Counted from the first letter of the stretch, positions 1 to 10,274 are shown. The stretch is DNA of 64,000 nt from Desulfobacterales bacterium (GCA_024637225.1 JAGXFP010000021.1:1-64000), one strand, 5' to 3'. A program made the numbers and translations. The notes: a model not told the origin generated them from the sequence alone.

Positions 1-1277
1 AGGTTCAGGGCGACCAGCTGGTCCCGGCCGGGCATGACGTTTAAGCCGCCCATGAATGAAACCAGGACCGGTTTGGTTCCCTTCAGATTGGCGCCGATGG
101 CCAGGGCGGTTTCCGCAGGTTTGGTCATCGCCTGGGGGGTGAGGATGATGATGATGGCATCGACTTCCCGGTCATCCTGGGCGGCAAGCAGGGCGGTAAC
201 GTAACGCTCCGGATCGGCATCGCCCAGCACATCGACCGGATTGCCGGTGCTCGCGGCTTCCGGCAGTTTCCGGCGCAGGGCGGTGGCGGTGTTGCGGGCG
301 AGCATCGCCACCCGCATCCCACCCTTTTCGACGCTATCGGCGGCCATGGTGCCCGGCCCGCCGGCGTTGGTGATGATCAGCACCCGGTCGCCCTTCGGCA
401 GGGGCTGCATGCTCAAGGCGGTGGCGTAATCGATGAGGGCTTCGAAGGTATCGGCCCGGACCACCCCCGAACGCTTGAAGGCAGCCCCGAAGGCGGTTTC
501 GGAGCCGGCCAGCACCCCGGTGTGGGAGGAGGCCGCCTTCAGGCCGGCGGCGGTGGTCCCCGATTTCAAGATGACCAGCGGTTTTCGGGCCGAGACCTCC
601 TCGGCCACCTTGATAAAAGAGTCGCCGGAGCTGATGTCCTCCAGATAGCCGATGATCACCCGGCTCTCTTCGTCTTTGGCCAGGGCACTGAGGATGTCGA
701 TTTCGTTGAGATCGGCCTTGTTGCCGATACTCACCATCTTGGCGATGCCCAGATGGCGAGCCCCGGCCAGATCGAGGATGGCGGTAAGCAGGGCGCCGGA
801 TTGGGAGACCACCGAGATCCCGCCCCGTTTCGGCATCCCGCCGGCGAAAGAGGCGTTAAGTTCCTTGGCGGTATTGATCAGGCCCAGACAGTTCGGACCC
901 AGGAGCCGCACCCCTTTGCCGCGGCAGAGCCCGGCCAGCTTTTCTTCGAGGGCCGCGCCTTCCGGGCCGCTTTCCTTGAATCCGGCACTGATCACGATCA
1001 GGGCCCGGACTCCGGCCCGGAGCGCCTCCGTTGCCGCATCGATGATCGCCGCCTTCGGAACCGCGATGATGCCCAGGTCGATCTTGGCCCCGTAGTCTCC
1101 GATACTCTTCAGGCAAGCCAGTCCGGCAACGGCCGCACCACTCGGGTTTACCGGCAGAATCCGGCCGCCGTAGCCGCCGTCGACCAGGTTTTTGACGATA
1201 TCATGGCCAACCTTGCCGGGGGTGCGCGAGGCCCCGATTACGGCGATTTCTTCCGGGTAGAAAAATTCTTCGAGCAT
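1..1277 (-). CDS. ADP-forming acetate/acyl-CoA ligase, N-terminal part (cut by window edge)
   Basis: Reading leftwards from an ATG at 1277 gives an open frame of about 425 codons that runs off the window. It starts MLEEFFYPEE, then an N-terminal CoA-binding Rossmann motif (GASRTPGKVG, residues about 15-24), a succinyl-CoA-ligase-like flavodoxin domain (VVSQSGALL near 157), and SSHTG near 250-254. In ADP-forming acetyl-CoA synthetases that His (about 252 here) is the phosphorylated catalytic residue. These cytosolic enzymes interconvert acyl-CoA, ADP and Pi with acid, CoA and ATP. The ATP-grasp half would lie to the left, either fused or as a separate subunit; this cannot be decided here. It is downstream of a CBS-ACT protein and an AcuC-like deacetylase on the same strand, separated from them by a family B repeat. 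Which acid is used is not shown by the sequence. Confidence 0.86.
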   Translation of the reverse strand, partial: MLEEFFYPEEIAVIGASRTPGKVGHDIVKNLVDGGYGGRILPVNPSGAAVAGLACLKSIGDYGAKIDLGIIAVPKAAIIDAATEALRAGVRALIVISAGFKESGPEGAALEEKLAGLCRGKGVRLLGPNCLGLINTAKELNASFAGGMPKRGGISVVSQSGALLTAILDLAGARHLGIAKMVSIGNKADLNEIDILSALAKDEESRVIIGYLEDISSGDSFIKVAEEVSARKPLVILKSGTTAAGLKAASSHTGVLAGSETAFGAAFKRSGVVRADTFEALIDYATALSMQPLPKGDRVLIITNAGGPGTMAADSVEKGGMRVAMLARNTATALRRKLPEAASTGNPVDVLGDADPERYVTALLAAQDDREVDAIIIILTPQAMTKPAETALAIGANLKGTKPVLVSFMGGLNVMPGRDQLVALN

Positions 1278-1317
1278 GGGATTTATTCTCGCTTATTCCG
1301 TTCCGAAGATTCAAGGG

Positions 1318-1545
1318 ATATTCCTGAATCCGTGACGGCTTCGTGGGGAATTTCACTGTATCCGTTTCTAATTTGCATTAGATAATCGTTTTTCCCCGGA
1401 TTGCCATGGTTCACCCCGCCGCCCTGCGGGGCGCCCGATAACGGCGCATCTGCCGCGTTGGCAACTCGTTGATATACCATCAGTATTATTAACCTCGTCG
1501 CCGCCTTGCATCTGCACCGATCTCGAACGCTCACGAATTCAGGAT
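1318..1545. repeat. Family B palindromic repeat, long form (copy B1)
   Basis: The element is bounded by inverted ends ATATTCCTGAATCCGTGA on the left and TCACGAATTCAGGATAT on the right. Its interior matches, in inverse orientation, the element at 46487-46703, including an inner segment of about 95 bp absent from the short copy at 28147-28274. The right end contains the stop codon and last few codons of the CBS-ACT gene. There is no convincing reading frame inside. Confidence 0.8.
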
Positions 1546-2190
1546 ATTTGTCTGGGGCGCCACCGCTTCAAAACCGGCCTCGGCCAGAGCATGGTGGAGC
1601 GCACTCAGTTTATAGGTATGAATGCGGATATAGATCAGGGTATCGCCGTTCTCTTCGCCGGTCCTGATCAGTCTGGTAAAGGGCACCTCCCGGGCTTCGA
1701 GAAGTTCAGTCAGCCGGGTCAGCGGTCGGGGCCGGCCGTCGTCCTTGACCACGATCAGCGAAGAGCCCCGGACCCCCAGGCCGAACAACTCCTTGTAGGC
1801 CTTGAGCAGATCGTTTATTGCCAGGATCCCGACGATCCGGTTATCCTCGTCAACCACGGGCAGTGCTCCGACCTTGTTCTCCTCGAAGAGGATCAGGGCG
1901 TCGTCCAGGGTCGCCTCGACCGCTAATCTGGTCAACACTTCGGTCATGATAAGGCTGACCGGCAGGGTCGTGTAACTATCAAGGTATTCCGTCTCCTCTC
2001 CCGAGATCATCATCGAGGGCAAGGCGCTGCGGATATCGCGGTCGGTTATAATGCCGAGGAGCAGATCATCGTCGTCGACGACCGGCAGATGGCGGCAGGA
2101 CGCGGCGGTCATGATCTCCCGGGCTTCGGGAACTAGGGTTTCCGGGCCGACGGTTCTGACCGGATAACTCATGAAGTTGCTGACGAACAT
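1531..2190 (-). CDS. CBS-pair plus ACT-like protein (AcuB-like)
   Basis: 219 aa. Two CBS motifs fill residues 1-130 (FMSYPVRTVGP..., GIITDRDIR near 46, then a second ending GILAINDLL near 125). A C-terminal segment of about 80 residues has the hydrophobic pattern of an ACT-like domain. CBS pairs bind adenosine nucleotides or SAM and ACT domains bind small ligands, so a regulatory role is likely. AcuB of the Bacillus acetoin/acetyl-CoA cluster has this architecture. It starts 12 bp after the deacetylase gene and precedes the acetyl-CoA ligase, so it probably senses adenylate or ligand state for that step (inference). The last residues (NILNS) and the TGA stop are read from the terminal inverted repeat of family B copy B1, so the original C-terminus may have been different. 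Confidence 0.85.
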   Translation of the reverse strand: MFVSNFMSYPVRTVGPETLVPEAREIMTAASCRHLPVVDDDDLLLGIITDRDIRSALPSMMISGEETEYLDSYTTLPVSLIMTEVLTRLAVEATLDDALILFEENKVGALPVVDEDNRIVGILAINDLLKAYKELFGLGVRGSSLIVVKDDGRPRPLTRLTELLEAREVPFTRLIRTGEENGDTLIYIRIHTYKLSALHHALAEAGFEAVAPQTNILNS

Positions 2191-2202
2191 TAGTAGACCT
2201 CC

Positions 2203-3171
2203 CTAGGGTGATTGCCACAGTCCCGAACAGTATTCGCTGAAGGATTCGCCGAGACTCGGCAGGTGATAGCCCCCTTCCAGAATCGACACCATCCTTCCCT
2301 GGCAGTGGTGGGCGGCCAGGGCAGTCAGCCGCTGGCCTAGAAAACGGTATAAGTTCGAGGAATAGGCCAGACCGGACATCTCGTCCAGGCGATGGCCGTC
2401 GAAACCGGCGGCAATGATCAGTGCATCGGGCTGGAAATCCGCCAGGGCCGGTTCGATGTGACGGCTGAAGGCTTTTTCCACCTGCGCATCTCCCGCCCCC
2501 GGCAGCAGGGGGAGGTTCAGGGTTGTGCCGCGGCCGCGGCCGGTGCCGTGCTCCTCGGCGAAACCGGTGCCGGGGAAGCTGAAGGTGGGGTGTTCGTGGA
2601 GGCTCAGGTAAAAAACCTCAGGCGACTCCTCGAAGGCGGCCTGGATGCCGTTGCCGTGATGGGCGTCGAAATCGATGATGGCGATGCGTTGGCGCTGATG
2701 TTGTTCCTGCCAGTAGCGGGCGGCAATGGCGACATTGTTTAAAAAACAGAAACCCAGGGCCATGGCTTTTTCGGCATGATGACCCGGTGGCCGGACGCTG
2801 CAGAAGATCACGGCCGCCCGTTCCTTTTCGGCAAGATCGATCCCGGTCAGACCCGCCCCGGCGGCAAGGAGGGCTATCTCGTAGGTGTCGTAACCGAGCT
2901 GGTTGTCGGGATGGCCGAAATGGCTTAGTCCGGACAGGGCCGTTTCCTCAAAACGTAAAAGATAGTCCTCGCTGTGGATTTTCAGGATCCAGTCCTGGGA
3001 GGCCGGACCGGCGGGTTCCCGGCTGATAACCCGACCGGGGCCGGTCAGGGTTTGCAGCCGCCGCTTAATCTCCTCCAGCCGTTCCGCGACCTCCGGGTGC
3101 TCGGAGAAGCCGGTGTCGTGCTCCAGATAGCGGGGGTGGCTGATGTGAATAAAGTTTTTCGGGAAGGGCAT
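2203..3171 (-). CDS. Histone deacetylase superfamily protein (AcuC-like)
   Basis: 322 aa, the length of a single arginase/deacetylase fold. It carries RPPGHHAE (His dyad at about 131-132), FDAHHGNG (zinc ligands Asp169 and His171), AAGFDGH (third ligand Asp258) and a C-terminal GGYH supplying the catalytic Tyr. Family members remove acetyl groups from lysines or polyamine-like amides in the cytosol. In Bacillus, AcuC deacetylates and so reactivates acetyl-CoA synthetase. Here it is the first gene of a leftward run followed by an AcuB-like protein and an ADP-forming acyl-CoA ligase, so deacetylation of that ligase is an attractive but unproven role. No AcuA-type acetyltransferase is adjacent. 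Confidence 0.88.
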   Translation of the reverse strand: MPFPKNFIHISHPRYLEHDTGFSEHPEVAERLEEIKRRLQTLTGPGRVISREPAGPASQDWILKIHSEDYLLRFEETALSGLSHFGHPDNQLGYDTYEIALLAAGAGLTGIDLAEKERAAVIFCSVRPPGHHAEKAMALGFCFLNNVAIAARYWQEQHQRQRIAIIDFDAHHGNGIQAAFEESPEVFYLSLHEHPTFSFPGTGFAEEHGTGRGRGTTLNLPLLPGAGDAQVEKAFSRHIEPALADFQPDALIIAAGFDGHRLDEMSGLAYSSNLYRFLGQRLTALAAHHCQGRMVSILEGGYHLPSLGESFSEYCSGLWQSP

Positions 3172-4183: not shown

Positions 4184-4632
4184 TTACACGCATTTGCGCT
4201 GTTCCTTCTTCCGCTCCCGGCCGATAAGCTCTACAAGATCATTCATCTCTTCCGCCAATAGCTCGATCAGGTCGTCGACGCTGATTATACCTTCAAGCAC
4301 CCCCTGCTTGTTGACCACCGGCACCCTCCTGACCCCCTGGCCCGCATCAGCTTGACGGCGTCGGCTATTGCCTCTTCCCCGGAAACGGTTAACAGGTCAC
4401 TACTCATAACATCGCCAACGCTCACGTCAGCAAAATCCACTTCACTGGCAATAAGCTCGATTACTATATCCCGGTCGGTCAGGATGCCGACCGGAAAAGC
4501 CAGACCTTCCCTTTTTTTAACCACGACCAGATCGCCGACATGATACGCGCGCATTAATTTTGCCGCACTCAGGACCGATTCGCTCTCCTCGATGATTACC
4601 ACTTCCCGGTTGCATAGCTCACCGCAATTCAT
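4184..4632 (-). pseudogene. Two-CBS-domain protein with a one-base frameshift
   Basis: From ATG 4632 the frame codes a CBS protein (LMRAYHVGDLVVV, GILTDRDIVIELI) up to about residue 98, where it turns to an out-of-family tail and stops at 4285. In the neighbouring frame the second CBS domain continues normally (RRVPVVNKQGVLEGIISVDDL) to a TAA at 4184-4186, for a total of about 149 aa. The break is at a run of five C on the plus strand (4333-4337); a sixth base would restore the frame. It is either a recent inactivating deletion, phase variation, programmed slippage or a sequencing error. Single CBS-pair proteins of this length are common stand-alone adenylate sensors. No partner gene is obvious. 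Confidence 0.8.
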
Positions 4633-9020: not shown

Positions 9021-9206
9021 TATCTCCGGGGGAACCAAATCCGTTTAATGATTAAGGGCGCCATTATATCACATAAAACAGGCAAATTGAACGGGTTTAT
9101 ATAAAAGCAGGCTGGCGGCTATCCCAATTTGCCAGGGAACATTTGACCCTCCCATCGGACTCTGATAGAATTCGCTTTGACCAATCTAATCAGCCTGGAG
9201 GGTGTA

Positions 9207-10274
9207 ATGACCAGAACCGCTATCATGAAAAACGACCTGTTTCTGAAACATGACGCGGGTTTTTCCCATATCGAGTCTCCGGATCGCCTGGCCGCGATCT
9301 ATCATGGCTTAAGCGAATTTGAAAAACTGGAATGCCTGACATTTCCCGATTTTGTGGCGGCCGAAAAGCAATATCTGCAACTGATTCATAGCGACCGCCA
9401 TATCGGTCGGATTGCCGAAACCGCCGACCGCGGTTTCGTCAGTCTCGACCCGGATACCGGCGCCTCGTCCCGCTCCTACGATGCGGCCCGTCTGGCGGTC
9501 GGGGCGGTAATCGCCGGAACTGATCTGATCATGGCGGGCGAGGTTGATAACGTTTTCGCCCTGGTGCGTCCGCCCGGCCACCACGCCGAACCGGATCAAC
9601 CCATGGGTTTCTGTTTGTTCAACAATATCGCCATTGCCGCCGCTTACGCGACCCGGGTCTTGGGATTGAAACGGGTGATGATCGTCGATTGGGACCTCCA
9701 TCACGGCAACGGCACCCAGCATGCCTTTTATGAAAGCGAAGAGGTGCTCTATTTTTCAAGCCACCTTTATCCTTATTTCCCGGGCAGCGGCGCCTTGCAG
9801 GAAACCGGCAGCGGCCGCGGCGAGGGCTACACCGTCAATATCCCCCTGTCCGGCGGCCAGAACGACATGTCCTATGCCGCCATCTTCAACGATATAGTGG
9901 CGCCCCTGGCCCGGCAGTACAAACCCGAAATGATCATGGTCTCGGCCGGCTACGACATCTGTGTCGGCGACCCCCTGGGGGCGATGGCGGTTACCCCTGC
10001 TGGTTTCGCTTATCTGACCGAGCTCTTGAAGGATCTGGCTGATGAGCTTTGCCGTGGCCGGCTGCTCTTGGCCCTGGAAGGGGGCTATAATCTGACCGGG
10101 CTGCGCGACGGGGTCCTGGCGACCATCGGCGCCCTGGCCGATAATCCTTTGTTGCCCGACCCGGCCGTTGAGACAGGACGATTGAGTCAGGCCGCTTTTG
10201 GCCGGCCGGGTTGTCTGTCGGAAGACGCTTTAGATGTCATCAGAAAGGGCCATGGCAAGCATTGGCAATTTTGA
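9207..10274 (+). CDS. Second histone deacetylase superfamily protein
   Basis: 355 aa from ATG 9207, with GGAGGG 6 nt upstream; a TTG 30 bp earlier is in frame but would place that site inside the gene. The deacetylase signature is complete: RPPGHHAE (His dyad 125-126), WDLHHGNG (Asp163, His165), SAGYD (Asp250) and LEGGYN with the catalytic Tyr. It resembles class II or acetylpolyamine-amidohydrolase-like bacterial members more than the copy at 2203-3171, and is about 33 residues longer. Substrate is unknown; acetyl-lysine proteins or acetylated polyamines are candidates. It is monocistronic by position. Confidence 0.88.
   Translation: MTRTAIMKNDLFLKHDAGFSHIESPDRLAAIYHGLSEFEKLECLTFPDFVAAEKQYLQLIHSDRHIGRIAETADRGFVSLDPDTGASSRSYDAARLAVGAVIAGTDLIMAGEVDNVFALVRPPGHHAEPDQPMGFCLFNNIAIAAAYATRVLGLKRVMIVDWDLHHGNGTQHAFYESEEVLYFSSHLYPYFPGSGALQETGSGRGEGYTVNIPLSGGQNDMSYAAIFNDIVAPLARQYKPEMIMVSAGYDICVGDPLGAMAVTPAGFAYLTELLKDLADELCRGRLLLALEGGYNLTGLRDGVLATIGALADNPLLPDPAVETGRLSQAAFGRPGCLSEDALDVIRKGHGKHWQF

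Follow-up and report, generated by a model that had tools for sequence, protein, structure and literature searches.

Does a deacetylase gene that lies beside the genes for a CBS-ACT protein and an ADP-forming acyl-CoA ligase belong to a complete system for reversible lysine acetylation, comparable to the acuABC genes of Bacillus, and if so, which gene provides the acetyltransferase? This question is raised by the first genes in a stretch of 64,000 nucleotides from a Desulfobacterales bacterium (GCA_024637225.1 JAGXFP010000021.1:1-64000), which is referred to here as the window. An earlier note, made from this sequence alone, had proposed that lysine acetylation and adenylate sensing may regulate the ligase, and had reported that no AcuA-type acetyltransferase was adjacent. 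The first part of this idea was borne out insofar as the genes form a conserved module for lysine acetylation, which places an AcuB-like predicted adenylate sensor by the ADP-forming ligase. The second part was not: a fourth gene, located on another contig of the same genome, encodes a CoA-transferase fused to a GNAT acetyltransferase domain. Together, the data provide good support for a writer-eraser-sensor acetylation module beside the ADP-forming ligase. The three genes described before were all found in the window, on the minus strand, and the complete set is as follows:

Positions 2203-3171, minus strand: HDAC-fold lysine deacetylase by prediction (eraser), 322 amino acids, PF00850 with E 1.2e-86, class II type
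Positions 1531-2190, minus strand: AcuB-like CBS-CBS-ACT protein (predicted sensor), 219 amino acids, two CBS domains by Pfam, ACT domain by fold
Positions 3-1277, minus strand: ADP-forming acyl-CoA ligase (ACD superfamily), the first 425 of its 702 amino acids, PF13380, PF13607 and PF19045
L158:900-2780, plus strand, outside the window: CoA-transferase-GNAT fusion (probable writer), 626 amino acids, PF02550, PF13336 and GNAT

Base 1 of the window is base 1 of its contig (C47), and the ligase gene is truncated by this contig end. Contig C6 (locus L158) of the same genome starts with a 32-nucleotide remnant of the Nextera transposase adapter (CGTCGGCAGCGTCAGATGTGTATAAGAGACAG, L158:1-32), indicating that the assembly broke at this point, inside the ligase gene. 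After the remnant and one further base, C6 has 38 nucleotides that are identical to the ligase end of the window, and it supplies the missing ligase codons (L158:1-903), giving a joined ligase of 702 amino acids. The fusion gene and the stop of the ligase gene overlap by 4 nucleotides on C6. In a relative of the same genus (L070), the identical four-gene order is unbroken, with gaps of 3 nucleotides or overlaps. Thus, the apparent lack of an adjacent acetyltransferase arose because the contig break hides the fourth gene. Contig C49 encodes an ACD paralogue with two subunits, which was set aside as a separate enzyme.

The CoA-transferase half of the fourth gene (N-terminal 440 amino acids) is nearest to 4-hydroxybutyrate CoA-transferases; it resembles the 4-hydroxybutyrate/butyryl-CoA:acetate CoA-transferases 9vag, 2oas, and 3gk7, including the catalytic Glu249, which is kept in 46/46 sequences, and differs from them by the addition of a C-terminal Pat-like GNAT domain. 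The closest solved relatives of this GNAT half are the protein lysine acetyltransferases PatZ, PatA, and MtPat (mycobacterial Pat), which by sequence identifies the fusion as the writer, and both Glu555 (the Glu of the AEVAF motif) and the Q-x-x-x-x-G acetyl-CoA motif are present in all 46 sequences. The fusion is the sole Pat-like GNAT in its own genome at E 1e-8, and a search of this genome for a PatZ-type writer elsewhere found none. The predicted fold of the fusion protein was of middling quality, with the GNAT half weakest (predicted local distance difference test [pLDDT] score of 77), and was not used. The GNAT acetyltransferases have been divided into types according to their accessory domains, which are an NDP-forming acyl-CoA synthetase (types I and II), a small ligand-binding domain (type III), none (type IV), or a second GNAT (type V) (PMC8556138). 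The accessory domain of the fusion is a CoA-transferase, which fits none of these five types. The fusion family probably represents an uncharacterized protein acetyltransferase, judging from its motifs and nearest relatives. Among 158 sampled genomes of the phylum, 83 contained matches to its CoA-transferase, mostly as full-length fusions. Genes of this architecture thus occur commonly across the phylum, and a single genome can hold several.

How far the gene order extends beyond this genome was examined in 58 genomes of one order, of which 39 carry an orthologue of the operon deacetylase. In 30 of the 37 loci fetched from this order, deacetylase, CBS-ACT, and ligase genes follow each other in this order. 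A scan of GTDB genomes resulted in 80 named loci, mostly from Desulfobulbales, within Thermodesulfobacteriota. In these loci, the deacetylase gene precedes the CBS-ACT gene in 65 of 73 testable cases, the ligase gene follows in 58 of 77, and the CoA-transferase gene comes after the ligase gene in 53 of 54; the complete four-gene set is found in 42/80. Cultured strains among them are Desulfobulbus elongatus DSM 2908, D. rhabdoformis DSM 8777, D. alkaliphilus DSM 24258, Desulfurivibrio sp. AMeS2, and Desulfofustis glycolicus DSM 9705. The three-gene order is far beyond chance and recurs in most of the named loci. A gene order confined to this genome, which the earlier note had named as refuting its idea, was therefore not observed. 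One locus (L048:1021-2703) has deacetylase and CBS-ACT in a single unbroken frame of 560 amino acids, which reflects either a true gene fusion or an error in the sequence, and an apparent CBS-ACT/ligase fusion in L044 was rejected, since the frame crosses a run of N (a scaffold gap).

The writer gene alternates between two unrelated forms. In seven independent loci (L091, L098, L103, L125, L166, L167, and L168), some of them from families outside the order, a PatZ-type acetyltransferase of about 900 amino acids, with an ACD-like and a GNAT part, is encoded directly upstream of the deacetylase, and in the testable loci of this type the CoA-transferase-GNAT fusion is absent. In a tree of 87 HDACs, the PatZ-type loci fall within one group of 12, which also holds a locus with the CoA-transferase-GNAT fusion (L119). 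Writer and eraser co-occurred in 37/39 versus 6/19 genomes (Fisher 7e-7, genome kinship ignored). PatZ and the other type I GNAT enzymes (Salmonella Pat, E. coli PatZ; PMC8556138) are the alternative writer upstream of the deacetylase in other families of the phylum; they are absent from the operon of the window, in which the GNAT domain is carried by a CoA-transferase. That the ligase itself could be a PatZ acetyltransferase was rejected, as its full-length relatives end at about 700 amino acids without a GNAT part and have retained the catalytic His.

In the operon deacetylase, the Zn ligands D169, H171, and D258 and the catalytic residues H131/H132 and Y302 are present, and the catalytic residues (HH, D-x-H, D, and Y) are invariant in 38/38 orthologues. 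Among solved structures, it matches the protein deacetylases HDAC6 and HDAH best. The top 60 solved relatives comprise class II HDACs, HDAH-type deacetylases/amidohydrolases, and an acetylpolyamine aminohydrolase, without any class I HDAC or HDLP by name. By these relationships to solved structures, the enzyme is of the class II type in an AcuC-like role, and this affiliation means that "AcuC-like" names a role and not a proven orthology; the corresponding label in the earlier note stands for the deacetylase role only. A second class II HDAC gene, with 38% identity to the operon deacetylase, lies in the window outside the operon (9177-10274, plus strand), and a third HDAC of this genome, in a frame of about 590 amino acids, lies on contig C64.

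The best PDB sequence match of the CBS-ACT protein is AcuB (9s4w, E 3.9e-20). Its structure was modelled with a pLDDT score of 89.1, and the top 19 PDB fold matches of the model are all AcuB or TTHA0829, with a template modelling (TM) score of about 0.8. The C-terminus of the model runs strand-helix-strand-strand-helix-strand, which confirms the ACT domain by fold. In Bacillus, AcuB binds adenine nucleotides or diadenosine tetraphosphate (Ap4A) and inhibits the deacetylase AcuC via its ACT domain, as reported in 2026 (PMC13039410, PMC13121692), and the residues R33, H34, R51, and D52 hold AMP/Ap4A. The two studies, whose scope is Bacilli and the AMP-forming AcsA, disagree on whether Ap4A or AMP is the relevant ligand, and a text search of PMC13121692 for "ADP-forming" found none. 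In relatives of the protein described here, R33 is present in 56/57 sequences, and H34, R51, D52, and the Asp of the second CBS domain (D127) in 57/57; Lys120 of Bacillus AcuB is not retained (position 125), and the alignment is gapped where the AcuC-contact residues D89/E92 would fall. The designation AcuB-like therefore holds, with both fold and near-invariant nucleotide-site residues, and by analogy the protein is predicted to be an adenylate/Ap4A-binding deacetylase inhibitor. Another CBS-domain gene in the window (4285-4632, minus strand) is apparently frameshifted, with a second coding half in another frame to about position 4200.

The catalytic phospho-His252 of the ligase is present in 52/52 sequences, and the CoA-binding, succinyl-CoA-ligase-like, and ATP-grasp_5 domains of the ACD superfamily were identified from the ligase together with three relatives. 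With these domains fused in 702 amino acids, it resembles the ACD ligases Korarchaeum ACD1 (4xyl) and 4-hydroxybutyrate-CoA ligase (8wzu), and differs from these in being encoded with an acetylation module. With the acetate model TIGR02717, a full-length relative scored 560.6 bits, just below the cut-off of 567.15. Based on its domains, the protein is an ACD-type acyl-CoA ligase; of the earlier designation "ADP-forming acetyl-CoA ligase", the ADP-forming type can be kept, and the acetate specificity is tentative. Nothing in the active sites of the deacetylase, the ligase, and the fusion, as far as sequence tells, suggests degenerate parts.

In the window, the deacetylase and CBS-ACT genes are separated by 12 nucleotides, with a GGAGG ribosome-binding site. 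The spacer between the CBS-ACT and ligase genes measures 253 nucleotides, compared to 3 nucleotides in L070, because a repeat has inserted there:

Positions 1322-1525, minus strand: dispersed repeat element of ~205 nucleotides, between the CBS-ACT and ligase genes

This repeat, which may be MITE-like or of another kind, has 41 matches in its own genome, the copies being 77-94% identical. Scans for sigma-70 and sigma-54 promoters around the operon gave no matches above those in shuffled sequence. A gene for a PAS and sigma-54 activator protein, a possible regulator, faces the end of the operon (L158:2911-4719, minus strand), and likewise in L070.

If the module works like its Bacillus counterpart, the class II HDAC-fold deacetylase would be the eraser, and the GNAT domain on the CoA-transferase, or the PatZ-type enzyme in other families, would be the writer. 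A CBS-ACT dimer would take up adenine nucleotides (AMP or Ap4A) with its CBS pair and plug the deacetylase with its ACT domain, and at low energy charge or under stress deacetylation would then stop and targets would remain acetylated. Both the AcuB-type inhibition and the ligand are inferred from Bacillus. There, the logic is that ATP-spending acetate activation is stopped when the energy charge is low. An ADP-forming ligase can run in either direction, and because of this reversibility the sign of an acetylation effect on it is not predictable. The targets of the module and the direction of its effect are inferred only.

We consider it likely that this locus encodes a self-contained module for reversible lysine acylation, which is of the AcuABC kind but assembled from other components. 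Several findings weigh against this. The deacetylase is of class II and Bacillus AcuC of class I, so that an AcuB-type interface is not guaranteed, and the AcuC-contact position M188/189 is mostly Y, F, or M in relatives of the CBS-ACT protein. Four Desulfobulbales loci have the deacetylase, CBS-ACT, and CoA-transferase-GNAT genes and no ligase gene, and six loci have the deacetylase and CBS-ACT genes alone, hence the module can do without the ligase. The more distant HDACs of the phylum pair with a CBS-ACT protein in 9/15 loci, with the other genes absent. Finally, the PxxxxGK Pat motif is absent from the ligase in 51/52 sequences. This last point also favors the strongest alternative, a quite conceivable one that falls somewhat short of even chances, in which neither the ADP-forming ligase nor the CoA-transferase is under acetylation control and both are merely co-transcribed metabolic partners. 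An AMP-forming acetyl-CoA synthetase (Acs), which in Bacillus is the known target of AcuC (PMC13039410), is encoded on another contig of the same genome and carries the motif, as PKTRSGK; Acs is found in 55 of the 58 genomes of the order, 52 of them above the family cut-off, and RIFOXYD12 (L097/L191) has acs as the immediate upstream neighbor of the deacetylase gene. However, this adjacency is limited to one lineage, compared to the 58/77 loci with an ADP-forming ligase, which is the commonest neighbor. Moreover, only AMP-forming enzymes characteristically carry the Pat motif, so that little weight attaches to the lack of it in the ligase.

It is also conceivable, but improbable, that the deacetylase and the GNAT domain act on small molecules such as acetylpolyamines, like class IIb HDAC10 or the bacterial acetylpolyamine aminohydrolase (APAH), in a catabolic operon without protein acetylation. 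HDAC10 and acetylpolyamine aminohydrolase are indeed among the solved relatives of the deacetylase, but its best matches, as mentioned above, are protein deacetylases, the GNAT domain is nearest to protein acetyltransferases, and the partners are an AcuB-like regulator and PatZ, a type of protein acetyltransferase. That the gene order is an inherited neighborhood without functional meaning would fit the fact that most loci come from one order, in which related genomes share gene order by descent, yet this is very improbable. In many families, the order survives although protein identity has dropped to 40-55% and flanking genes vary; a check for loss of the order in most of the similarly diverged families did not show it; and the cluster is kept while its writer is replaced by an unrelated fusion protein, which argues for function. 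Returning to the acetylation module, a more specific version is possible, though we hold it only tentatively: the CoA-transferase-GNAT proteins would add another class to the protein lysine acetyltransferases of bacteria, the CoA-transferase half of which senses or supplies acyl-CoA, and which together with the class II deacetylase and the AcuB-like sensor sets the acylation of the ADP-forming ligase.

Compared to acuABC and acsA of Bacillus (PMC13039410, PMC13121692), the locus shares the clustering of writer, eraser, and CBS-ACT sensor by an acyl-activating enzyme, the acetate-activating one in Bacillus, and the sensor shares the AcuB fold and the four nucleotide-site residues. The differences are a class II instead of a class I HDAC, the replacement of the small GNAT AcuA by a CoA-transferase-GNAT fusion (or PatZ), an ADP-forming ligase instead of the AMP-forming AcsA as neighbor, and occurrence in Thermodesulfobacteriota instead of Firmicutes. 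The earlier remark that the link is not standard knowledge agrees with our search, in which no publication on the HDAC/CBS-ACT/ligase cluster or on the CoA-transferase-GNAT fusion was found, subscription literature being outside the search. The locus looks like a little-known acetylation switch of the acu type, whose writer has an architecture that the described GNAT types do not include.

Here, a complete set of writer, eraser, and energy sensor travels with an ADP-forming ligase and a CoA-transferase, which are reversible, energy-saving enzymes of anaerobes living near thermodynamic limits. The known range of AcuB-type energy sensing would thereby widen beyond Firmicutes to include the sulfate-reducing Desulfobulbales, and control of the ligase by acylation, if true, would be the first case known of such control by acetylation in the ADP-forming ligase family.

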